From positions 1-32,634 of the forward strand of contig SVGE01000011.1 in NCBI GenBank assembly GCA_015056545.1: a stretch of 32,634 bases of DNA, given 5' to 3'. The position numbers were made by a program, and so were the translations under genes. Shown here in pieces: positions 5,399 through 31,953 of this stretch. The notes under the pieces are model-generated. The model was not told the DNA's origin and did not search any database. It saw nothing but the letters and a program-made list of their open reading frames with translations. This stretch comes from Clostridiales bacterium. Its GTDB lineage: Bacteria; Bacillota; Clostridia; TANB77; SIG350. Each line of letters begins with the position of its first letter. Within the stretch, counting starts at the first letter, position 1.

Positions 5399-8218
5399 TT
5401 ATTTCAAATATTTTTTCACAAATTGTCCTGTATATGACTCTTTTACTTTTGCAACTTGTTCAGGAGTTCCTGTAGCAACAATCGTTCCACCATTTATCCC
5501 TCCATCTGGTCCTAAATCTATTATATTATCTGCTACTTTAATTATATCTAAATTATGCTCTATGACAATAACTGTATTTCCTGAATCAACTAGTCTTTGA
5601 AGTATATCTACTAATTTGTGGACATCAGCTATATGAAGGCCTGTTGATGGTTCATCTAATATATATACTGTTTTTCCTGTTGCTTTTTTACTTAATTCTG
5701 TTGCAAGCTTTACTCTTTGAGCCTCTCCACCTGAAAGTGTTGTAGATGATTGTCCTAGTTTTATATATCCAAGTCCTACATCAGATAAAGTTTGAATTTT
5801 ATTACGTATTTTAGGAATATTTTCAAAAAATACTAATGCTTCATCTACTGTCATATCTAAAACTTGCGCAATATTTTTCCCTTTATATTTAACTTCTAAT
5901 GTTTCTTTGTTATATCTTTTTCCATGACAAACTTCACATGGAACATATACATCTGGAAGGAAATGCATTTCTATTTTTAAAATACCATCACCACGACATG
6001 CTTCACATCTTCCACCACTAACATTAAAACTAAATCTACCTTTTTCATATCCTCTCATTTTAGCTTCATTTGTTGTTGCAAATATTTCACGTATACTATC
6101 AAAAACACCTGTATATGTCGCTGGATTAGAACGTGGAGATTTTCCTATTGGTGACTGATCTATATTTATAACCTTATCTAAATATTCTAAACCTTTTATT
6201 GATTTATATTTTCCAGGTTTCTCATTAGCTCTATTTAATTCTTTTGCTAATATTTTATATATTATCTCATTAACTAATGATGATTTACCTGATCCTGAAA
6301 CACCAGTTACACATGTTAATAATCCAACTGGGATTTTTACATTTATATTTTTTAAGTTGTTTTGTTTTGCACCAGTAAGTTCAATATATTTTCCATCACA
6401 TTTTCTTCTTTTTTTAGGAACTTCTATTTTCTTCTTACCACTTAAATATTGTCCTGTAATTGAATTAGGTTCTGCTTTAATTTCTTCTACAGTTCCTTGT
6501 GCAACAATATGCCCTCCATTTACACCAGCACCTGGTCCAATATCTATAATATTATCTGCTGCATACATTGTATCTTCATCATGTTCTACAACAATTAATG
6601 TATTATTCAAATCTCTAAGATGTTTTAATGTTCCTATCAATTTTTCATTATCTTTTTGATGAAGCCCTATACTTGGTTCATCTAAGATATATAACACACC
6701 TGTAAGTCCTGAACCTATTTGTGTAGCAAGTCTTATTCTTTGAGCTTCTCCTCCAGATAAAGTTCCTGCTGTTCTAGATAGTGTTAAATATTCAAGTCCA
6801 ACATTACATAAAAAGCCTAACCTTGCATTTAGTTCTTTTATTATTTGCTCAGCAATAATAGTTTCTTTTTTATTTAATTTTAAATTAGCTATATAATCTC
6901 TTAATTCATTTATTGGCATTTGACAAAAATCATTTATATTTTTACTACCAATTTTTACACTTAAAACTTCTTTTTTTAATCTTGCACCATGACAATCTGG
7001 ACAAACAGATGCTGTCATATATTCTTCATAATATTGTCTTGAAGCTTCTGAAGTTGTTTCTTTATATCTTCTTTGAATAATATTTGCAATACCCTCAAAT
7101 TCAGATTCAAAATATTTATTTCCTCTTTTAGATTCATAGCCAAATTTTATTTTTTCATCTGTTCCATAAAGAACTATTTTTAAGAAATTCTTTGGCAATT
7201 TATTTATTGGAGTATTAATATCTATACCATAATGCTCACATAATCCCTTTATATACATTTTAGGTATTCCATTAATATTAACTGGACTCCAACCTATTAC
7301 ATTTATTCCTTTATCTAATGGAAGTGTTTTATCTGGCATAATTAAATCTGGATCTAATTCTAAAAATGTCCCTATACCACTACATGTAGGACAAGCACCA
7401 TATGGGTTATTAAATGAAAACATTCTTGCAGATAATTCTTCCATACTAATGTTGCAGTCTGGGCATGCATAGTTTTGACTAAATAACTTTTCTTCTTTAC
7501 CAACTATATCTATTAATACTAAGTTTTCTGCATATTTAAAAGATATTTCAATACTATCTGCTAATCTATTTCTAATATCTTGTTTTATAACTAATCTATC
7601 TACAATTACTTCAATGTTATGTTTTTTGTTTTTATCCATTTTGATTTCTTCAGCTAATTCATGAACTTCTCCATCAACTCTAACACGAACAAATCCATCT
7701 TTACGTATATTTTCAAGTAATTTTGTATATTCCCCTTTTCTACCTCTAATTATTGGTGATAATACTTGAATTTTAGTTCCTTCAGGCAATTCCATTACAC
7801 TGTCTACAATTTGGTCTACTGTTTGTTTTTCAATTTTTCTACCACAATTAGGACAATGTGGAACACCAATTCTTGCAAATAATAATCTTAAATAATCATA
7901 AATTTCAGTTACTGTTCCAACAGTTGAACGTGGATTTTTAGATGTTGTTTTTTGGTCAATTGAAATAGCTGGACTTAGTCCCTCTATATATTCAACATCC
8001 GGTTTTTCCATTAACCCTAAGAATTGTCTTGCATATGATGAAAGTGATTCAACATATCTTCTTTGTCCTTCTGCATATAAAGTATCAAAAGCTAATGATG
8101 ATTTACCAGAACCACTTAAACCTGTTATTACTACCAATTTATTTTTTGGTATTTCTATATCTATATTTTTTAAATTATGTTCTTTTGCACCTTTTACATA
8201 TATAACATTCTTTTCCAT
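5399..8218 (-). CDS. uvrA: Excinuclease ABC subunit A
   Basis: UvrA is the ATP-dependent damage-recognition protein of nucleotide excision repair; it loads UvrB at lesions. The 939-residue length is normal. The first Walker A is GLSGSGKS (33-40), with the strongly conserved [18 protein letters not shown] after it. Zinc-binding Cys groups are [12 protein letters not shown]...CPTC in the first half and CEACRGDG...CEVCHG in the second. Both ABC signature motifs are present ([12 protein letters not shown] and [12 protein letters not shown]), as is the second Walker [10 protein letters not shown] candidate LexA box lies upstream, consistent with SOS control known for uvrA in Firmicutes. uvrB is not adjacent, so this is a monocistronic copy. 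Confidence 0.97.
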
Positions 8219-12208: not shown

Positions 12209-13777
12209 TTATTTACAAATATTATATAAAATATTCGCAACTTCTTCTCTTGTTATACTTTTATTAGGTCTAAATGTATTATCTTCATATCCATTTATTA
12301 TTCCTGCATTTGTCATATTAATTATTCCAGTATATGAATACATTTCTTTTGATACATCTTTAAATGTTGCATTTTTAGAAATACTGTTTAAATTTAAATT
12401 TAATCTATTAAGCATTGTAACAAATTCTTGTCTAGATATTTCATTATCTGGTTTAAATGTACTATCTTCATATCCATTTATTATTCCTAATTTGCTACAT
12501 TTTAGAATATTATTATATGCCCAGCTATTTTGAATGTCTATAAAATTGATATCATGTTTTTCAGCTAAGGTTATATTTTTCTCACTTATTAATCTAGTAA
12601 TTATTGTAGCAACTTCTGCTCTTGTTATATTTTCTTTTGGGCTAAATATATTATTTTCTTTTCCCTTCATTAATCCAATATTTTTAACAAAATATATTGC
12701 TTCTTTTGACCACATATCATTTGTAACATCTATATATTCACTACTATTATTACTATCTTGTTTCCATACATCTAAATCCCATATATCTGTCATTTCTTGA
12801 CCTAAAGCCCAGCTTCCTGTTCCTTTTAAACCATAACTATCAATTAATTCAATTTTTTGATTTAATGTATATGCATTTTCATACCAAAATGTATATGTAC
12901 CTGCTGAAAATATATATTTATCTTTTTGAGCTTGCTTATCTGTTACATATATAGTTGCTTTCATGCTTTTGGTATTTACATCATATATACCAGTTGAATT
13001 ATAGTCTTGCAAAATTTGATTTATTAATCTATCACTAGCACCTCTACCCCCTACACCATTTTCATTCCAATATCTTCCGAAAAATGCTAACCCAATTACT
13101 ACTTTTTCTTTTGGTACATATTTTAATGTATATTCAATAGAGTTTTTTATAAAATCATAACTTGCAACAGGACCTGGAGTTCCCCCCTCATAATGCTCAT
13201 CATAAGCCATTACCATAATATAGTCTGCATATTTTCCTAATTCTTTATAATCATAACTACCATGCCATCCTGTAGTCCATCCATTTGGATTAGCAGCTAC
13301 TGCAACAGATACTGTCTTTTCCGCTGGTAATTTTTCTCTTAAAGTTTTAACTAAATTAGTATAATTATCATTATCTACTTCTGTTACATTTTCTATATCC
13401 ACATTTACACCATCTAAATTATATTTATATATTGCTTCTACTATTTGATTTGATAAATTAATATAGTTATTAAGTCCTGCTCTTCCTATGTTTCTATCCC
13501 AATGATTACTTAAAAATGGGACAACTTTAACTCCCATATTATGCATTTCATTTATATATGTCGTATCAAGATATTCTGAAATTTTTAATGTTCCATCTGA
13601 ATTAATATCAAAATAACTTGGTGAAACTTCATCTATAACCCCATTAGTATTTTTCATATTAGTTATATTACTTTGCGTTGTTCCACCATAAACATAAGTC
13701 ATATTAAAATTACTAGCATATCCTAAACTTGATATATTTATTAAAATGCATATTAAAATTATACATATTTTTTTCAT
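12209..13777 (-). CDS. Secreted GH18 family protein with three SLH repeats
   Basis: A signal peptide (KKICIILICILINISSLGYA, then SN) precedes a GH18 TIM-barrel of about 320 residues. The catalytic motif reads LDGVNVDIENV (D122 to E129), with Asn replacing one Asp of DGxDxDxE, as in spore-cortex and peptidoglycan-active GH18 proteins; YIMVMAYDEHYEG and the late GTGSWALG are also family motifs. Three SLH repeats (about residues 345-520) would anchor it to the cell wall; each carries FxP(K/D/N)..ITR or a close variant. Likely role: exported cell-wall or GlcNAc-polymer hydrolase. GTG 13786 is an alternative start, but ATG 13777 has better spacing to GGGTGA. Confidence 0.85.
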   Translation of the reverse strand: MKKICIILICILINISSLGYASNFNMTYVYGGTTQSNITNMKNTNGVIDEVSPSYFDINSDGTLKISEYLDTTYINEMHNMGVKVVPFLSNHWDRNIGRAGLNNYINLSNQIVEAIYKYNLDGVNVDIENVTEVDNDNYTNLVKTLREKLPAEKTVSVAVAANPNGWTTGWHGSYDYKELGKYADYIMVMAYDEHYEGGTPGPVASYDFIKNSIEYTLKYVPKEKVVIGLAFFGRYWNENGVGGRGASDRLINQILQDYNSTGIYDVNTKSMKATIYVTDKQAQKDKYIFSAGTYTFWYENAYTLNQKIELIDSYGLKGTGSWALGQEMTDIWDLDVWKQDSNNSSEYIDVTNDMWSKEAIYFVKNIGLMKGKENNIFSPKENITRAEVATIITRLISEKNITLAEKHDINFIDIQNSWAYNNILKCSKLGIINGYEDSTFKPDNEISRQEFVTMLNRLNLNLNSISKNATFKDVSKEMYSYTGIINMTNAGIINGYEDNTFRPNKSITREEVANILYNICK

Positions 13778-13867
13778 TTTCATCACCCAATTATATGTTA
13801 CAATTTTTATACATCAAAAGCAATGGAAATAGTTTGCTCAACTGGTAGTTAAAGTATTTCAAACAAA

Positions 13868-13906: not shown

Positions 13907-14203
13907 TTATTTTTTACAAATAATAATTTTGTTTTCTCTTAAATAACATTCAACAAAATCATCTTCTTTTAATTTTAGTAATTTCATATATTCTTTTGGA
14001 ATTTGAATAATTAAATCACTATTGGGTTTGCGTATTATTCCAACATGTGCTTTTCGTTTTAAATTTTCATTATCAAATTTAGAAATACATAAATCTCCAT
14101 ATTTAACACTTATTTCTAAATTCTCAAACTTTTTAATACCCAACTTTGATGCAAATTTTCTTGGAATAACAAATCTTCCAGCTGATAATATTTTCCGCTT
14201 CAA
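13907..14203 (-). CDS. Tandem AbrB-type DNA-binding protein (paralog 1)
   Basis: A ~98-residue protein with two AbrB/SpoVT swapped-hairpin half-domains: KRKILSAGRFVIPRKFASKL, then HVGIIRKP and IQIPKEYMKLLKL. Members of this fold bind DNA as dimers and act as transition-state or plasmid-maintenance regulators. I chose TTG 14203, because GGAGG (14212-14216) lies eight bases upstream, exactly as for the TTG-started paralog 2 (GGAGGatatggtaTTG here, GGAGGatgtagtaTTG there). ATG 14218 has no ribosome site. It follows paralog 2 by 15 bases and shares its promoter. The linker between domains is SKFDNENLKRKA, the same position as RKFEREKL in paralog 2. Confidence 0.8.
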   Translation of the reverse strand: MKRKILSAGRFVIPRKFASKLGIKKFENLEISVKYGDLCISKFDNENLKRKAHVGIIRKPNSDLIIQIPKEYMKLLKLKEDDFVECYLRENKIIICKK

Positions 14204-14218
14204 TACCATATCCTCCAT

Positions 14219-14512
14219 TTATACTAAAATTAGCATTGTTTTGTCTTTTAAATATATGTCTACCTTACACACATCTGTTACGTTAAAGAGTAGCCAATAT
14301 TCTCTTGGAATACAAATTCTATCAAGTTTGTCAAGTTTTCTTACTATACCAATATGTGCATATAACCTTAACTTCTCGCGTTCAAATTTTCTTACACAAA
14401 TTCTACCATGTTCAATACTTATTTGAACCTCATCCCTTGTAGAAAGTCCCATTTCTTTAAAGAAATGAACCGGAATATGAACTCTTCCACCTTTGTCTTT
14501 TACTACTTTCAA
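14219..14512 (-). CDS. Tandem AbrB-type DNA-binding protein (paralog 2)
   Basis: A 97-residue protein with the same two half-domains as its neighbours: KDKGGRVHIPVHFFKEMGL and the second unit HIGIVRKLDKLDRICIPREY. The TTG start is supported by GGAGG eight bases before it. A perfect promoter lies upstream at 14575-14603, so this is the first gene of a two-gene unit with paralog 1. The second unit has a long run shared with paralog 5 (GIVRKLD..(N/D)R..IP(K/R)EY), the clearest sign that the set arose by duplication. Its target DNA is unknown. Confidence 0.85.
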   Translation of the reverse strand: MKVVKDKGGRVHIPVHFFKEMGLSTRDEVQISIEHGRICVRKFEREKLRLYAHIGIVRKLDKLDRICIPREYWLLFNVTDVCKVDIYLKDKTMLILV

Positions 14513-14574
14513 TACTACATCCTCCTTATAACAAAATGTTATATAAAATTTATTTTGTATAATAATACCTTAAT

Positions 14575-14603
14575 ATTATACCTTCTTCAACGAATTATGT
14601 CAA
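14575..14603 (-). promoter_or_regulatory. Consensus promoter for AbrB paralogs 2-1
   Basis: Minus strand TTGACA (14598-14603), 17 bases, TATAAT (14575-14580). The AATAAGTTGACATAAT around the -35 is repeated exactly at the promoter of paralog 4 (15345-15350), showing that promoters were duplicated with the genes. Confidence 0.9.
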
Positions 14604-14621
14604 CTTATTTGCAAATAAAAA

Positions 14622-14647
14622 ATCAACTTTAAATTTATAAAGCTGAT
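14622..14647 (-). terminator. Terminator after AbrB paralog 3
   Basis: Ten-bp stem ATCAGCTTTA/TAAAGTTGAT (one G-T), followed on the minus strand by TTTTTTATTT. It lies 12 bases past the stop of paralog 3 and just upstream of the next promoter. Confidence 0.85.
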
Positions 14648-14658
14648 CTTTTATTCAT

Positions 14659-14958
14659 TTATTTTATTATTTTAATGACTATTTTTGAATGTGCTTTTTC
14701 CAATTGTATATTGGTTCCTTCCTTAAGATTAAGTACATCAATATATTCTTTTGGAATAGATAACTCATTAGTAGACTTAACCTTTTTTATAACCCCTATA
14801 TATGGCCGTGTTATTACTGTTTTAGGATAAAACTTCTTTATAACAATATTTCCATATTCAAGATTAAGTTCAATATAATCATTGGTTTGAACACAAATAT
14901 GTTGCATAATACTTTTAGGAATACTTATTCTACCTGTTTTACTTATTCTTTTTTGCAT
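14659..14958 (-). CDS. Tandem AbrB-type DNA-binding protein (paralog 3)
   Basis: A 99-residue protein: first half-domain QKRISKTGRISIPKSIMQHI, second YIGVIKKVKS with LSIPKEYIDVLNL. GGAGG lies eight bases before the ATG. It starts 20 bases after paralog 4 ends, so the two form a second two-gene unit of the same kind, driven by the promoter at 15322-15350. The first half is closest to a classic AbrB/SpoVT N-terminus. Confidence 0.83.
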   Translation of the reverse strand: MQKRISKTGRISIPKSIMQHICVQTNDYIELNLEYGNIVIKKFYPKTVITRPYIGVIKKVKSTNELSIPKEYIDVLNLKEGTNIQLEKAHSKIVIKIIK

Positions 14959-14978
14959 TGATTACTCCTCCGCTTCTT

Positions 14979-15260
14979 TTAAGTCATAAGTTTAATTGCT
15001 CTGCCTTCACCAATAACTTTTACACTTTTAGGATTACCTAATAACTTTATATATTCTTCCGGTATACTTACTTTATTTGCTGTTCCCATTTCTCTAATAA
15101 TTCCTACATATTCACGTAGATTTATATTTTCCCGCTGAAGTTTTCTTATACAAATTTGGCCATATTCAAAAGTTATTTCAAGCTCATCATGTACATTTAT
15201 TCCTAATTTCTGGCTTAAGTCTTTTGGAATTTTTACAACTCTGTCTTCTCTCCAACTCAT
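14979..15260 (-). CDS. Tandem AbrB-type DNA-binding protein (paralog 4)
   Basis: A 93-residue protein with first half-domain REDRVVKIPKDLSQKLGI, then YVGIIREMGT with VSIPEEYIKLLGN. It is slightly shorter at both ends than its paralogs. GGAGGATGTAAAT precedes the ATG with eight-base spacing, like the other family members. It is first in the paralog 4-3 unit; the IS200-type element begins about 125 bases upstream of its start. Confidence 0.8.
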   Translation of the reverse strand: MSWREDRVVKIPKDLSQKLGINVHDELEITFEYGQICIRKLQRENINLREYVGIIREMGTANKVSIPEEYIKLLGNPKSVKVIGEGRAIKLMT

Positions 15261-15522: not shown

Positions 15523-15990
15523 CTATTTCACTGGCTCACTCGTGAACGGATCTATATATTCTTTCAAACTTATTTGTTCATATAATTTATCTTCTTGCAA
15601 CTGCTTTTGTATATATTCTCTTATTATTTTTTCGTTCTTTCCTACTGTATCTACAAAATATCCTTTTGCCCCAAAATGTCTATTTCCAAATTTATATTTT
15701 AAATTTGCATGTCTTTCAAATATCAGCAATGTTGATTTTGATTTCAAATATCCCATTATTAATGCTATTGAATATTTCGGTGGTATTTCTATTAACATAT
15801 GTATATGATCTCCATATGCTTCTCCCTCTATTAATCTTACATCTGATTTTCTACTTATTAATAATTTTAGTATTTCTATTATATCTTTCCTTAATCTATT
15901 ATATATTATTAATCTTCTATATTTCGTTATTCTCACTATATGATATTTACATCTATATGATGTATGTGATAAACTGTTTGTGTCTTTCAT
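15523..15990 (-). CDS. tnpA: IS200/IS605-family transposase TnpA (HUH Y1)
   Basis: A 155-residue single-strand DNA transposase. The HUH pair is H62-I-H64 in YGDHIHMLIEIPP, and the catalytic Tyr is Y126 in IIREYIQKQ. The N-terminal YHIVRITKYRR matches the family's YHIVFxPKYRR. Length is full, so it may be active. It excises and inserts single-stranded DNA at the hairpin-marked ends. The ribosome site GGAGGGATG lies eight bases before the ATG, and a promoter lies 44 bases upstream. Confidence 0.93.
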   Translation of the reverse strand: MKDTNSLSHTSYRCKYHIVRITKYRRLIIYNRLRKDIIEILKLLISRKSDVRLIEGEAYGDHIHMLIEIPPKYSIALIMGYLKSKSTLLIFERHANLKYKFGNRHFGAKGYFVDTVGKNEKIIREYIQKQLQEDKLYEQISLKEYIDPFTSEPVK

Positions 15991-16153: not shown

Positions 16154-16230
16154 TGCACTTCAATTTTGCTCAATTTTATTATAGTATTTACAGCAGGTAT
16201 CATTTCTTCCAGAAATTTGCACCTAGCCTA

Positions 16231-16246
16231 AGCTCCTTCCGGAGTT
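16231..16246 (-). other. GGAA-loop hairpin just after the stop codon
   Basis: On the coding strand ACTCC-GGAA-GGAGC forms a short hairpin starting directly after the TAA. DGR targets are known to need a stem with a GRNA tetraloop just downstream of the variable repeat; GGAA fits GRNA. The stem is short (4 bp on the coding strand, more with wobbles on the other), so this is suggestive, not proof. Confidence 0.55.
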
Positions 16247-17238
16247 TAATTAACTGCAGACTCTGAGATCGTTATAACTGGACGCACCCCATAGAGGCTA
16301 GCCTCATAATAATAACTCCAGGCAAAGATATACGTAGAGTAATCGAAAAACCATACACTGTCTCCCCCATCAGCACACGCCAGCCAATAAGATAAGGCTA
16401 CTCCTTCATCATCTTGATTTACCCACGTCGGGCAACCTATTGCTGAATAAGCTGTACTATCTCCCCCTAATTCTACAACTTCTTCTACTGTCATTAATCT
16501 TCCTGTTACTGCTACTCCTGTACCTTCTGCTATCTTATTGGCATATGCTTTCGCTATTCCTATTGCATCTGTTACTTGTATATTTTCTGTTGCATATTCA
16601 TTTAAATTTAATGGATATTCTGTTTCACTTGACCAGTAATTTATACTTGAAAATGCTACTGTTGGTGCACTACTACTTTGTACATATGTATCTGTTGTTA
16701 TATTCTTTTCTGTTAATAATGTTAATGTACTTCCATTATCTTTTAATACTCTAAATTTTTCTTCTCCTATTGTTACTTCATCTCCTACATTATATTCTAC
16801 ATCCGCTACTGGTGTTTCGCCTGTTCCTATTCCTAAGTCTATTAACCATTTTTCTTGTAATACTTCTTCATTTAATTCTTTTTTTGCTACTATTTCTCCA
16901 TCTACTACTTCTATTAATTCTCCATATTCTTCTTCTTTAAATTCTGGTAATATTTCTTTTATTGCTTCACCTGTTATTGTTTTGTCTATTAATTTTAACT
17001 CTTCTTCTTCTCCATTTCCTGTTGCTAACTTTATTTGTTCCTCTGCTCTTTTTACTGCTAATATTTCTTGATATGTTCGTATATCACTTTTAAATACACT
17101 TTCTTTTGCCCTGTCTATTATACCACCTTCCATAAAAGTTACAATAACTGCAGCAGTTAATATTATTAGTACAATTATTGTTACAATTAATGCAACTAAG
17201 CTTATACCTGATGTTCTACTATTCTTTAAATTTTTCAT
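16246..17238 (-). CDS. Pilin-like protein with DUF6273/C-type-lectin-like C-terminus; candidate DGR target
   Basis: A 330-residue protein. The N-terminus NSRTSGISLVALIVTIIVL is the class of prepilin-like leader common in clostridia (Gly then a hydrophobic helix; no Glu5), followed by IIDRAKES and a helical stalk. A spacer from about residue 105 leads to VGDEVTIGEEKFRVL, a DUF6273-like start, and the C-terminus ends GVRPVITI, typical of C-type-lectin-fold DGR targets. The last ~60 codons are richer in G+C and in Trp, Tyr, Ser and Phe codons ending in C/T. ATG 17238 is preferred over 17244 because AAAGGAGG is nine bases away rather than three. Predicted role: surface-displayed variable binding protein. 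An ordinary non-diversified pilin is the alternative. Confidence 0.8.
   Translation of the reverse strand: MKNLKNSRTSGISLVALIVTIIVLIILTAAVIVTFMEGGIIDRAKESVFKSDIRTYQEILAVKRAEEQIKLATGNGEEEELKLIDKTITGEAIKEILPEFKEEEYGELIEVVDGEIVAKKELNEEVLQEKWLIDLGIGTGETPVADVEYNVGDEVTIGEEKFRVLKDNGSTLTLLTEKNITTDTYVQSSSAPTVAFSSINYWSSETEYPLNLNEYATENIQVTDAIGIAKAYANKIAEGTGVAVTGRLMTVEEVVELGGDSTAYSAIGCPTWVNQDDEGVALSYWLACADGGDSVWFFDYSTYIFAWSYYYEASLYGVRPVITISESAVN
16250..16390 (-). other. Candidate variable region (VR) of a diversity-generating retroelement
   Basis: My manual counts give 27-28 G/C per 60 bases in each of the three rows covering 16261-16440, against 14-22 in some rows of the gene body (one row, 16501-16560, reaches 26). 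Many codons here (TGT, AGT, TTC, TAC, TAT, ATC, AGC) could arise from AAY template codons by adenine change. The end is the invariant-looking GGGGTGCGTCCAGT (GVRP), followed by the stop and a GRNA-type hairpin. No matching template repeat is present in this window. Confidence 0.55.
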
Positions 17239-17272
17239 AATCATTTTCCTCCTTTAAAATTTAATTTTGTTA

Positions 17273-17396: not shown

Positions 17397-17626
17397 ATAT
17401 AATTGGGCAAAACAAAAGAACCTAAGACTACATTACGTTTTCTCGTAATATATTCTTAAGTTCTCTATATTTTTTTGCATGTCAATTAAAGATGTTTTTA
17501 TACTATAAACATCCCCCCCCCCTAGTATTTAGCACTTTCTGGCACTTTACTTTGGTTTTATTTGACATTTTCTTACACCTTCTTTCTTGTTTGTATATTA
17601 TCATATGTAATTCATCTTTTCAATAG
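17397..17626. repeat. 230-bp dispersed repeat, copy B
   Basis: Same orientation as copy A (1-229). It lies about 85 bases upstream of the pilin-like gene's promoter and 60 bases past the terminator of AbrB paralog 5. The poly-C run is 10 (9 in copy A). The two-stem structure and the GATGTTT/AAACATC hairpin are unchanged. Downstream of the run the two copies have drifted, for example TTTCTGGCAC against TTTATGGCAC. Nothing else was recognised in 17314-17396. Confidence 0.9.
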
Positions 17627-17726: not shown

Positions 17727-18038
17727 TTATTCCTCTTTAGAAATATATATAACATTTCCTATAAGGTCAACATTTAATAGCTGCCTTTCACCTGATCTAA
17801 TTCCTAAAAAATAGAAATATTCTTTTGGAATTACAACCCGATTAACTACATCCAACTTTCTTACTATACCGAACTTTGGTAATCTTGCAACATTAACCTC
17901 ATTCTCTTCAAACTTTCTTATAGCAATCTTACCATACTCCATTATTATTTCTACTGGCTGGTATGGAGCATATGCCAAATCATCCATAAACTTTCTCGGC
18001 AATGTTAATCTCCCTAAGCTGTCCATTCTTCTATACAT
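17727..18038 (-). CDS. Tandem AbrB-type DNA-binding protein (paralog 5)
   Basis: A 103-residue protein: first half-domain YRRMDSLGRLTLPRKFMDDL, second FGIVRKLDVVNRVVIPKEYF. It is the longest and most conserved of the five paralogs and lies on the other side of the pilin-like gene and IS. It has its own promoter (18098-18126) and terminator, so it is a single-gene unit. GGAGG lies eight bases before the ATG, as in the family. A local regulator of the island is a reasonable inference. Confidence 0.85.
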   Translation of the reverse strand: MYRRMDSLGRLTLPRKFMDDLAYAPYQPVEIIMEYGKIAIRKFEENEVNVARLPKFGIVRKLDVVNRVVIPKEYFYFLGIRSGERQLLNVDLIGNVIYISKEE

Positions 18039-23260: not shown

Positions 23261-23506
23261 AAAAAAACACGATTATATCCCAAGGGACGAATAATCGTGG
23301 TACCACCCAAATTTATATATTTACACTAATTGTATAAACAAACTCATTTAGTTATAACGGGACAACCGGTTTTTCTTACTATTATTTCAGAAAACTGCTC
23401 AAAGGTGATATTCATTAAATCTAGTTTATCACAATTTCAGCATACATGTGACTCTCTAAAAACATTAATTCAACTACTTGTCCTTATCTTCGCAATATCT
23501 ACTATG
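23261..23506 (-). promoter_or_regulatory. T-box riboswitch, isoleucine-specific
   Basis: A 245-base leader senses uncharged tRNA-Ile. GATAAGGACAAGTA and AGAGAGTCAC mark Stem I, the specifier codon is ATC in GAATATCACC, and TGGTACCACG (23296-23305) is the antiterminator T-box that pairs with the tRNA acceptor end. The alternative terminator is CACGATTAT/ATAATCGTG with a seven-T run (23261-23299). Confidence 0.93.
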
Positions 23507-24315: not shown

Positions 24316-26328
24316 TTATCTTTTAGAAAATTTAATAACAACAAAAGTAAGTATTATAGCACCTAAACAAACTGCATAAATAATTAAATTATTTATTGTA
24401 TTAGTATTATTCATACTCTTTTGATTATTCCTCATATCTGGCATATTACTTTTTCCTAATTCATTTAGATTTTCTCTTTGTGGAAGCTCTGTAGCTTCTT
24501 GAATGTTTTCTGCATTCTCTTCTCTTGACCATTTATTTCTTTTTATATTTTGTTCTTGAAAAGCTCCTCCACCCATATTCATAGTTCCCATATCAGATAA
24601 ATTAATATCCGATTTAATTAATAAATTTGAATTTTGATTTTGCCCATCAGTAGTTGAAGGAATATTTCCGTTTAATTGGCCTTCAACACTTTGAGCTCTT
24701 AGATTTACCACTTGTTTTAATATTTCTGCTGCTTTTTCATATTCATCATATGTATAAAATGCTGTATTATCTGTTTTAACTAATTCGTCAATTTGTCCTC
24801 TAATTCTGTTATATGTTTCTTCAAACTTACCAGCATATACATATTCCTCTACTAATTTATTAAGATATTCATGATATTTAGCTAAATATTCTTCATTATC
24901 TAATAATGTTGCAAAAAATTTTCTATCTTCATTAGATATTCCTTGTGAAAAAGGTGTATCAATTGCAAAATTTATTGTAGAAGTTGCACTTCCTTGACTT
25001 TCACTATTTTGACTTCTTCCACCCATACTAAATCCACCAAAAGCTAAATTATAGTCCCAAGGAACTAGGCTTAATTTTCCATCATCTTCATACAAATAAT
25101 AGTTATGTGTCATATTACCACTTAAACTATCTAAATTTACAACAAATGTATGTACTGCTAGATATTTTAATACAGCATCTACATCCATATATTGTTCAAT
25201 ATTATTATTTTCACTAATATTTTTTAAAGCAGTAACTACTCTTTTATGATCTGTATCTGAACTTTCAAATATTGAGCTTTCCCAAATAATTGAATAGCTA
25301 TCTAATTCATCATCAATATAATTTAGCGAAGCTGCACTTCCTCCACCAAATCCACCCATCATACCTTTACCGACCATATTCTCTGGCATCTCAAATTCTT
25401 CCATTCCTTCTGGTATATCTGGTATTTCTTGAATATTAAAATTTTCTTGTTGTATATTTTCATTCATATTATTAGGTGGTGTCATATTCTGTCCTCTACC
25501 CATTCCTTGTTGAAAATTAGTTTTTCCACTATCTTGAGTAGCATCTGCTTCATCTGGAAATGAATTAGGATTATTTATTTCCATGCCTTGTGGCATATTG
25601 TCTTTCATATTTTGAAACATTTCTTCTGGTATATTTTCTAGCATATCTTCGAAATTCTTATTATCGCCATTTTCTCTATTACCTCCACCCATTTCCATAC
25701 TATCTGGTTTATAAAGTTCGCCATAGCCTACACCATAATTACGTATAGCAAAACTTTCTTCAACAGCTTCTAATGCTAGATACACACCCCAATACTCACC
25801 ATTAACATATATTTTAGCATAATTATATAATGATGCTTCTGCATCTAAATATTCAAACATATCATAAACAATAGCTTCCTTCATATTTGTAGCATCTGCA
25901 TAATTATTATTTAATATTAACTTATCCAAACCATATAAACTTTGTCCATCAACATATTGATCAAATTCTATTTTAAGACTGTACCTATCTGTCTCAGTAT
26001 CATTGGCAATTGTGCTAAGACTTGTATTACCTTTTGCTCTAATTCCAACATTAGAATATGTCTCATTATTTATTACAACATTACATGAATAATATTCCTC
26101 ACTTATTGCATTATTTAATAAATCCTGCCAATCTGCTTCATCAATTATAATATTAATATCTATAATTTCCTCTGTATTAAATATTTTTTCTTCGTATTCC
26201 ATATTTACAGCAACACTAGTAAAACTCTCTAATATTTTATCTGCAAATATTACTCCTAAAATACACAATATAGTCCCAATTGCCACAATAACTAAAACTA
26301 TTTTATTAATATTTTTATTTGAAATCAT
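24316..26328 (-). CDS. CotH-family kinase-like membrane protein
   Basis: A 670-residue protein with an N-terminal membrane helix (KIVLVIVAIGTILCILGVIF) and a C-terminal one (NLIIYAVCLGAIILTFVVIK), so the middle is probably extracytoplasmic. It carries CotH blocks: GIRAKGNTSL, SLKIEFDQY, DKLILNNNYADATNMKEAI, WGVYLALEAVEE, then the kinase-like LVPWDYNLAFGG with the Asp. Spore CotH is a protein kinase of coat proteins, but this version is larger and membrane-tied; function is inferred only by family. Residues ~215-330 are an insert rich in Met, Gly, Asn and Glu (for example NMVGKGMMGGFGGG). Third gene after VTC and DUF4956. Confidence 0.85.
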   Translation of the reverse strand: MISNKNINKIVLVIVAIGTILCILGVIFADKILESFTSVAVNMEYEEKIFNTEEIIDINIIIDEADWQDLLNNAISEEYYSCNVVINNETYSNVGIRAKGNTSLSTIANDTETDRYSLKIEFDQYVDGQSLYGLDKLILNNNYADATNMKEAIVYDMFEYLDAEASLYNYAKIYVNGEYWGVYLALEAVEESFAIRNYGVGYGELYKPDSMEMGGGNRENGDNKNFEDMLENIPEEMFQNMKDNMPQGMEINNPNSFPDEADATQDSGKTNFQQGMGRGQNMTPPNNMNENIQQENFNIQEIPDIPEGMEEFEMPENMVGKGMMGGFGGGSAASLNYIDDELDSYSIIWESSIFESSDTDHKRVVTALKNISENNNIEQYMDVDAVLKYLAVHTFVVNLDSLSGNMTHNYYLYEDDGKLSLVPWDYNLAFGGFSMGGRSQNSESQGSATSTINFAIDTPFSQGISNEDRKFFATLLDNEEYLAKYHEYLNKLVEEYVYAGKFEETYNRIRGQIDELVKTDNTAFYTYDEYEKAAEILKQVVNLRAQSVEGQLNGNIPSTTDGQNQNSNLLIKSDINLSDMGTMNMGGGAFQEQNIKRNKWSREENAENIQEATELPQRENLNELGKSNMPDMRNNQKSMNNTNTINNLIIYAVCLGAIILTFVVIKFSKR

Positions 26329-30453: not shown

Positions 30454-30474
30454 GAGTAGGTAAATTACCTACTC
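30454..30474 (-). terminator. Terminator of the serine recombinase gene
   Basis: GAGTAGGTAA/TTACCTACTC around one A, followed on the minus strand by eight T. The stem includes the TAG stop codon itself. Confidence 0.9.
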
Positions 30475-31953
30475 TAGTGGCTCCCCGTTCCCAACTAAAA
30501 ACGAACCACTTATTTCTTCTATTGAAGGAATATTTATTTCTACTTTTGTTTTATCTTGTGCATTAAATAAAATTATAATATGGTCATCATATACATATAC
30601 TTTATTAACTAACACATTAATTAACATTTTTTTATATTTAATATCATTTACATTTCCATTTTTTAATTTATTCAAAAAGAATTTTACTTCTTGTTCTGTT
30701 ATGTTTATACATTTATTTTTTTCCACAATGATTTTTTCATTAATTGCTTCTAATTCATTTTCTATTCTGTCAAGTTCTTCAAAAATAGTTTTTCTAATAT
30801 TATCTTTTTCGCACTCTCTTAAATTAATAAGCATATTTCTTTTTTGTTTTTCTGTACTCTTTAATAGATTTTCTAATCTATTAATATCACTATTATTTTT
30901 TTCTTTTTCAATATTTTTCACAACTTGCTTTGCTATTTCAGTTATATTTTTTTCTGTTAGCATATTTCTAGTATTAAATATTACTATATCTTCTATATAT
31001 TCTTTTTTAATATTTTTTCTGTTACATTTTTTCTTTTTTATACCATTACATATATAATAATAATAAATAGTTCCATTTCTAGAAGTTCCACAAGTACCAG
31101 TCATTAATTCATTACAAGTTCCACAAAATAATTTTGTACTTAATAAATATTCTGTTTTTGCTTTTGCTCTTGCTGGTGCTTTTTTATTTGTTTCCATAAT
31201 TGCTTTTACTTTTTCAAATGTTTTATTATCAATTATTTGTGGAACACCATTTTCAATTCTTATATCATTATATTTATATATTCCTATATATTTTTCATTT
31301 TTTAGAATAACATTAATACTATTTTTATTAAATTCTTTTCCTTCTGCCGTTTTTATTAATCTTCTATTAAGCTCTCTAATAATATCTGCAATAGTACTAC
31401 CATTTGCATACATTTTATATATTAATCTTACAATTTCTGCTTCTTGTTCATTAATTTCATAATGCTTTGTTTCACTAATTTTATATCCAAGAGGTACTTT
31501 CCCTCCATTATATAAGCATTTTTCTGCATTTATTCTCATACCTCTTTTTACCTTTTGACTTAATTCAACTGAATAATATTCTGCCATACCTTCAAGAACA
31601 CTTTCCATAAGAATACCAGAAGCATCATCCGAAATATTTTCTTTTGCAGATAATACCCTTACTCCGTTTTTCTTTAATTTAGCTTTATATATTGCACTAT
31701 CATATCTATTTCTTGCAAATCTATCTAATTGATAAACAAGTATTCCTTCAAAAAATTTTTTGTTACTATCTTTTATCATTCTTGCAAATTCTGGTCTTTT
31801 GTCATTTGTTCCAGTCAATGCTCTATCAATATAAGTTCCTACAATAGTTAAATCGTTTCTTTTTGCATATTCTTCACAAACTTTAATTTGTCCTTCAATA
31901 GATTGTTCTGTTTGATTATGCGAACTATATCTTGCATATGTTACTACATTCAT
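30469..31953 (-). CDS. Large serine recombinase (integrase)
   Basis: A 494-residue site-specific recombinase. The catalytic N-domain has Y-A-R-Y-S with Ser10, then GILVYQLDRFARN. A recombinase domain follows (about 160-265, GYKISETKHYEINEQEAEIV), then a zinc-ribbon (CGTCNELMTG...CNGIKKKKCNRK) and a coiled coil (about 335-425, Lys/Glu-rich). This is the architecture of phage and ICE integrases. The repressor gene is on its upstream side, and the sequence below its stop is likely near the attachment site. GGGGAAGTTGT precedes the ATG. Confidence 0.93.
   Translation of the reverse strand: MNVVTYARYSSHNQTEQSIEGQIKVCEEYAKRNDLTIVGTYIDRALTGTNDKRPEFARMIKDSNKKFFEGILVYQLDRFARNRYDSAIYKAKLKKNGVRVLSAKENISDDASGILMESVLEGMAEYYSVELSQKVKRGMRINAEKCLYNGGKVPLGYKISETKHYEINEQEAEIVRLIYKMYANGSTIADIIRELNRRLIKTAEGKEFNKNSINVILKNEKYIGIYKYNDIRIENGVPQIIDNKTFEKVKAIMETNKKAPARAKAKTEYLLSTKLFCGTCNELMTGTCGTSRNGTIYYYYICNGIKKKKCNRKNIKKEYIEDIVIFNTRNMLTEKNITEIAKQVVKNIEKEKNNSDINRLENLLKSTEKQKRNMLINLRECEKDNIRKTIFEELDRIENELEAINEKIIVEKNKCINITEQEVKFFLNKLKNGNVNDIKYKKMLINVLVNKVYVYDDHIIILFNAQDKTKVEINIPSIEEISGSFLVGNGEPLE

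Follow-up and report, generated by a model that had tools for sequence, protein, structure and literature searches.

The variable pilin-like gene studied here is best read as one member of a large pilin-like surface repertoire that is diversified on two levels, content and expression, an interpretation to which we give a probability of roughly two in three. The window, that is, the whole 32,634-nt stretch of DNA analysed, corresponds to contig C12 of a 1.45-Mb assembly that comprises 17 contigs and is 99% complete; the host is a gut-type Clostridia genome with about thirty near-identical pilin-like genes. On the level of content, a diversity-generating retroelement (DGR) on another contig acts on members of this gene set. 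On the level of expression, the genes share a leader with a poly-G tract whose anatomy suggests a phase-variable attenuator. One bacterium probably couples two diversity engines on ~30 pilin-like proteins, with a DGR that would rewrite their tips and a poly-G attenuator before every copy that would pick the tips shown, and the same pairing probably arose separately elsewhere, as at locus L162.

A pilin-like gene with a hypervariable 3′ end

The window gene (16246–17244, −) is an ORF for a 332-aa protein that begins with a prepilin-like N-terminus, SGISLVALIVTIIVLIILTAAVIVTFMEGGIIDRAKE. Its only NCBIfam match is a weak one to GspG (E 0.029), yet the N-terminus recurs in about 30 paralogs, and the prepilin-like segment itself (GISLVALIV...GGII; 17116–17208, −) is near-identical in 29 genes of the genome, which upholds the pilin-like start proposed in an earlier note made from the sequence alone. 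A search of the genome with this N-terminus returned 31 genes at E < 1e-8, 29 of them at 79–100% identity. Read by eye, the C-termini comprise about 16 that resemble the DGR template TR1 described below (TR1-type), nine of the window type (two with the N-terminus past a contig end) and six that are leucine-rich-repeat-like. Related pilin-like families were found in 45 of 143 genomes of the order, with up to 37 copies each.

Within the last 60 codons of the window gene lies a sharply bounded hypervariable segment of 30 codons (16291–16380, −), which has the character of a DGR-type variable region and is followed by a conserved 3′ segment, GGGGTGCGTCCAGTTATAACGATC...AAT (16249–16290, −), in the position of an IMH. 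This 3′ end is common to eight other loci, defining a nine-gene family whose members share the pilin-like N-terminus wherever that part of the gene was assembled and differ in the stretch between YWL and VRPVITISESAVN. In the hypervariable stretch, paralogs agree at 34, 31 and 37% of codon positions 1, 2 and 3, respectively; the corresponding values for the 50 codons just upstream are 90, 87 and 83%. Composition sets the segment apart as well. Over the 29 codons scored, between YWLA and GVRPV, third-position A amounts to 7% vs 70% in the rest of the gene (Fisher p = 2.5e-11), and G+C is 0.41 vs 0.32. The earlier note had described a G+C-richer final coding segment with codons derivable from AAY, and both features are borne out, the near-absence of third-position A being the bias expected from an AAY-rich template. 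The variable region that it had placed at 16250–16390 is also present, with its extent now revised to 16291–16380. Loss of third-position A extends to all eight intact members of the family (the window gene and seven others), the ninth, on C10, being frameshifted. A right-anchored codon-position test of the window-type regions gave the expected order, with the third position most alike; the effect was small because the lengths of the regions differ.

Recombination or gene conversion among paralogs could in principle vary the end of the gene with no DGR involved, and the near-identity of both the 3′ end and the N-terminus among paralogs is what conversion gives. However, we found no donor copies of the variable segments elsewhere in the genome, and the depletion of third-position A is the product expected of AAY-rich templates, so that we regard this explanation as very unlikely.

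A DUF6273 C-terminus had also been suggested. This assignment did not hold for the window protein, in which PF19789 was not detected by Pfam at E up to 0.1; matches were found in sister-species targets of the same kind, L134 and L158 (31.1 and 25.2 bits, above the cutoff of 23.5). Two structure predictions (pLDDT 52.6 and 43.3) were of too low quality to show a C-type-lectin fold or to serve in a fold search, and a profile search of solved structures in the PDB with the target gave no useful sequence match.

A hairpin, CTCC-GGAA-GGAG (16230–16246, −), overlaps the stop codon of the window gene. It has 4 contiguous pairs followed by an A·C mismatch and appears to be a degenerate form of the stem retained in the paralog L003, which keeps 9 pairs beneath a TGAA loop. 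In phage DGRs the pattern is a GC-rich stem of 7–10 bp with a GRNA loop, 4–34 bp past the variable repeat (PMC3240598). The GRNA-loop hairpin reported in the earlier note is present, here overlapping the stop codon, but its stem is short, and the loop sequence is not conserved in the family, because that of L003 is TGAA. In TR1-type genes of this AT-rich genome (loci L022–L027; contigs C1, C7 and C6), a conserved G+C-rich element, GGACGAAAGCGCGTGGGG, is located directly 3′ of the stop codon; it gave no Rfam match in L022, L023 or L025.

Several other features were noted in the window. An IS200-like Y1 transposase (15523–15990, −; Y1_Tnp, 1.5e-30) adjoins the variable gene on its downstream side. 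AbrB/MazE-fold DNA-binding proteins, some with matches below the cutoff, flank it, four in tandem and a fifth across the variable gene (13907–15260 and 17727–18038, −), and are possible local regulators. The window also encodes a GH18 protein with SLH domains, a CotH-domain protein and, near the right contig end, a large serine recombinase (12209–13786, 24316–26328 and 30469–31953, respectively; −). A T-box leader (Rfam, 122 bits; 23280–23499, −) stands directly 5′ of an isoleucyl-tRNA synthetase-like ORF.

A trans-acting DGR and the missing template of the window gene

As the earlier note had stated, neither a reverse transcriptase (RT) nor a template is present in the window. The search of the genome for a DGR RT that it had proposed found one, the single RVT_1 protein of the assembly, on contig C1, and so did not refute the DGR reading. 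This protein is part of a complete DGR cassette (C1:74274 to about 77700), which contains the RT, an Avd homolog, a MutS-like accessory protein, the template TR1 and a pilin-like target. The RT (C1:74274–75227) matches RVT_1 (E 2.4e-15) and the PHROG 1423 RT profile (2.7e-79) and carries the motifs IGNMTSQ and YQDD; its best PDB relative is 8ub7 (2.9e-32), which we take to be the RT of the BPP-1 DGR. On the same strand and 5′ of the RT are the Asn-rich TR1, the Avd homolog (PHROG 3206 "Avd protein of DGR", 1.6e-15; NCBIfam Avd, 1.8e-10; bAvd, 36.9 bits, just below the cutoff of 40), a MutS_I protein of 146 aa and the pilin-like target. MutS-like proteins (MSL) have been described as accessories of DGRs (PMC10053308). 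The cassette combines a DGR-type RT, an Avd accessory, and template and variable repeats that differ at template adenines.

Seven clear copies of TR1 were found in pilin-like genes, one in the cassette and six elsewhere. In two targets, one of which is on another contig, mismatches fall at template adenines only (26/26 and 27/27), and of the 226 mismatches counted over six ungapped copies, 170 are at A. Since adenine-only targets of TR1 exist, one of them on a different contig, DGR action in trans occurs in this genome, which carries a DGR acting in trans on pilin-like proteins. The complete system (RT, Avd, MutS-like protein and TR1) serves a sister set of targets, most of them in trans. Several TR1-type regions are decayed, with third-position A as high as about a third, up from 0, and C-ending codons down to a few percent from about a half, a gradient that looks like a record of the time since last rewriting.

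For the window gene itself, the earlier proposal that the locus is acted on in trans fares less well. TR1 acts in this way on other pilin-like genes, but no template repeat matching 16250–16390 except at adenines was found in the assembly. Searches at the DNA level, with a mismatch-tolerant 3′ boundary (up to 3 mismatches for the longer boundary and 1 for the shorter) and with an Asn-consensus protein returned only other variable regions. The assembly yielded no second RT, no second Avd and no template of the short class defined below; viral contigs scanned with the 3′-end pattern and a protein profile gave nothing, as did a first scan of genome contigs with the window protein.

TR1 was considered as the template of the window gene and rejected. 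It measures 146 nt vs about 107–113 nt over the same span, the 3′ ends (GGTTTGCGCCCTGTAG vs GGGGTGCGTCCAGTTATA) differ at non-adenine bases, and no match of TR1 to the window gene was obtained. Being longer and different at non-adenines, TR1 cannot be the window template. Direct writing of the window gene by TR1 and the C1 RT, which the trans action of TR1 on other genes of the same N-terminal family might have suggested, is contradicted by the sequence, and we consider its probability negligible. Nor did any single template write all window-type regions, since their lengths differ. With no matching template in the genome and TR1 excluded, the window gene is a "DGR-type orphan" rather than a proven target; on sequence grounds it is best called an orphan DGR-type target, either a relict or one whose cassette is unassembled.

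An RT-profile scan of species genomes identified 80 loci, most of which, to judge by the genome titles, are from uncultured gut Clostridia. Templates of sister species fall into a short class of 33–37 codons and longer classes of 47–49 and 51–52 codons, and at many sister loci of both kinds all differences between the template and a neighboring gene, which often has a pilin-like start, are confined to adenines. Some genomes (CANPAC01, CANRGU01) carry one cassette of each template class. One sister-species template (L186, near 2143, +) has the appearance of a short-class template fused to a portion of a long-class template, possibly a step in template switching. In cross-species scoring, with adenine as a wildcard and codon-shuffled controls, L003, L006, L007 and L008 matched short-class templates at z = 4.3–5.1, L004 and L005 at 3.8 and 3.3, and L010 at 2.8; the window's own region scored z = 0.8, which is not above shuffled codons. 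We propose that 16291–16380 may have been written by mutagenic retrohoming from a short-class template located outside this assembly; a template fitting the window gene would be AAY-rich and short, and would end like GGGGTGCGTCCAGT.

It is an even bet that the window gene is now a relict, the short-class cassette having been lost and the variable region being no longer changed by retrohoming. The assembly contains no template, RT or Avd for it, its variable region is in an intermediate state of decay and its C10 paralog is frameshifted. A precedent is Treponema denticola SP32, which has a leftover target that matches the template of another strain (PMC4891356). Three paralogs nonetheless look fresh (L003, L007 and L008, with 42–47% C-ending codons, as if recently rewritten), and the assembly may lack the cassette. 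These same observations favor a live target, served by a second cassette with a short-class template that is present in the cell or population and missing from the assembly. Such an arrangement would resemble that of the sister genomes with one cassette per template class; many contigs of the assembly break off at, or close to, a pilin-like gene or its leader, and the template of Thiohalocapsa DGR 7 was seen only in long reads (PMC10907252). On the other hand, a single-copy cassette should assemble at 99% completeness, codon composition suggests partial decay of the window region and of several paralogs, and the window hairpin has lost pairs. We therefore view a live target as possible, at clearly less than even odds.

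A shared poly-G leader upstream of the pilin-like genes

The unexpected result of this analysis, which we judge more interesting than the DGR question, is a shared phase-variable-type leader over a DGR-diversified pilin repertoire. In the window, the order on the minus strand is promoter, ribosome-binding site, short ORF, poly-G tract, stop, hairpin, about 160 nt and gene start. The promoter-like sequence, TTGAAA-17-TAATAT (17595–17623, −), scored 9 of 12 in a scan, has TG before the second hexamer and is conserved in other leaders by inspection. The short ORF, MSNKTKVKCQKVLNTRGGGCL* (17503–17568, −), shows neither indels nor stops in its first 15 codons across 27 leaders, and contains a G10 tract (17513–17522, −). 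Downstream is a hairpin with a U-rich tail (17409–17465, −), a candidate terminator that alignment shows to be kept in 27 leaders; the 86-nt stretch around it folds at −28.6 kcal/mol (z −7.3). A simple terminator scan did not call this hairpin, the U-tract of which is interrupted (TTCTTTTGTTTT), and the leader belongs to no Rfam family, the T-box being the only Rfam match in the window. A second copy of the leader occupies the left contig end (13–185, −), with a ribosome-binding site at 179–185, a short ORF at about 37–171, a G9 tract at 117–125 and a hairpin at 13–69; its gene lies beyond the contig end.

All 26 close pilin-like genes whose upstream DNA was assembled have the leader, and five further copies are cut at contig ends. 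Tracts of G7 or longer are concentrated in it: of the 36 in the genome, 31 belong to the leader, with 26 preceding pilin-like genes and the other five lying at contig ends, at breaks in the assembly. Between paralogs the tract ranges from G7 to G13 with near-constant flanks. Outside the leader, two near-identical elements (C14:977 and C14:8555; L200 and L201) each have a G9 tract facing a C4 run.

Consequences of tract length were read in 30 testable leaders, at the assembled length and with one residue removed or added. Every one of the 30 had exactly one G length among these three at which the short ORF extends beyond the hairpin's first base, by 26–53 nt; at either of the remaining lengths it ends 20–38 nt short of the hairpin. 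Four leaders, as assembled, have the long frame and would be ON: those at C5:120621 and C7:124645 (the latter itself frameshifted), that of the cassette target at C1:77493 and the left-end leader of the window. With its G10 tract, the leader of the window gene is in the short frame, and the gene would be OFF. For a single leader, an open frame across the spacer is seen in about half of shuffles; the weight of the case for a switch comes from the combination of tract, conserved short ORF and hairpin, not from one open frame.

These features suggest the following model. A ribosome would translate the leader short ORF containing the poly-G tract, and slippage of the tract would put it in a different frame. 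Just one of the three frames would take the ribosome into the hairpin terminator, which it would hold open, giving the ON state; in the other two it would stop 20–38 nt short, allowing the terminator to form and transcription to end, the OFF state. In anatomy the leader matches the phase-variable attenuator of Streptococcus gallolyticus pil1, from which its function can be predicted by analogy. At pil1 and pil3 of that species, gain or loss of GCAGA repeats places the leader stop either tens of nt before the terminator (low expression) or within or next to it (high expression), with genetic proof (PMC3894217). Both systems have a leader ORF with a slippable repeat, a stop whose position relative to the terminator matters, and pilus genes or their likeness downstream. 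S. gallolyticus uses GCAGA repeats at two loci and is proven, whereas the arrangement proposed here would use a G tract in 31 leaders joined to DGR-type targets.

Alternatively, the poly-G tract and hairpin could form a fixed leader or a plain terminator kept by descent. Paralogous leaders could share the tract through descent or gene conversion, and the interrupted U-tract, the lack of a call in the terminator scan and the roughly 160 nt between hairpin and window gene are all compatible with such a leader. Yet tract length varies while the flanks hardly change, as slippage gives; the G7+ tracts of the genome are nearly confined to the leader; the frame of the short ORF is intact through 15 codons in 27 leaders; and the distances between stop and hairpin agree with those on which the OFF and ON states depend in S. 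gallolyticus. A fixed leader is thus unlikely, though less so than the conversion-only explanation of the variable ends, and we favor a switch.

In 12 related genomes of the order, 20 regions upstream of pilin-like genes were sampled and none had the poly-G leader; because no poly-G tract was present in any of them, the leader looks specific to this lineage within the sample. Different layouts were found farther away. At L162, a DGR locus from Bacilli, a G8–G9 tract separates a −35-like TTGCAA from a −10 TATAAT before each of four tandem genes with a target-like C-terminus (2453, 3543, 7206 and 8298, +), and L164 has a similar promoter-spacer tract at 7533, before a gene with the canonical pilin start GFTLIELL. 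One target in each of L162 and L164 is adenine-only vs its template (mismatches at 17/32 and 17/38 A, none at non-A). Poly-G tracts thus appear to be paired with DGR targets more than once, by different layouts; a limited search of the open-access literature found no description of such a pairing. Similar tracts were also observed at L177 and L184, before other or unidentified genes.

Relation to known DGRs and implications

Like the archetypal DGR of Bordetella phage BPP-1, the system described here has an RT, Avd, a template, adenine-directed mismatches and a hairpin after the variable region, the latter apparently degenerate in the window gene. It differs in being cellular and trans-acting, with a MutS-like accessory in the cassette and pilin-like targets, while the target of BPP-1 is a tail fibre. 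Closer parallels exist among bacteria. In T. denticola, one RT and template serve two to seven scattered genes, and one strain keeps a target without a template (PMC4891356); remote targets across the genome and a target whose template is missing are shared with our case, in which, by contrast, the scaffold is pilin-like, the targets comprise about 16 of the TR1 type and nine of the orphan type, and a poly-G leader is present on each. Thiohalocapsa PB-PSB1 has 15 target proteins with 21 variable repeats, trans action and targets without a template in the assembly (PMC10907252). Its many targets, trans action and template-less members recur here, but those targets are putative antigen sensors in conflict systems and are served by several RTs, as opposed to one RT and pilin-like proteins.

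Control of the expression of DGR targets has rarely been addressed. Here, a 1.45-Mb genome holds about 25 genes with DGR-type ends on one pilin-like scaffold, and the set lies behind one shared leader that looks switchable. The question of what keeps a cell from displaying dozens of random binders simultaneously becomes directly testable in existing reads, since metagenomes allow both the lengths of the tracts and the alleles of the variable regions to be counted. The window-type family further suggests that template loss may leave targets behind as dated, orphan variable regions. If our interpretation is correct, a cell could vary both the content and the on/off state of its display, and this gut lineage would possess an antigen-like display system in which variants are generated and then chosen by stochastic expression.
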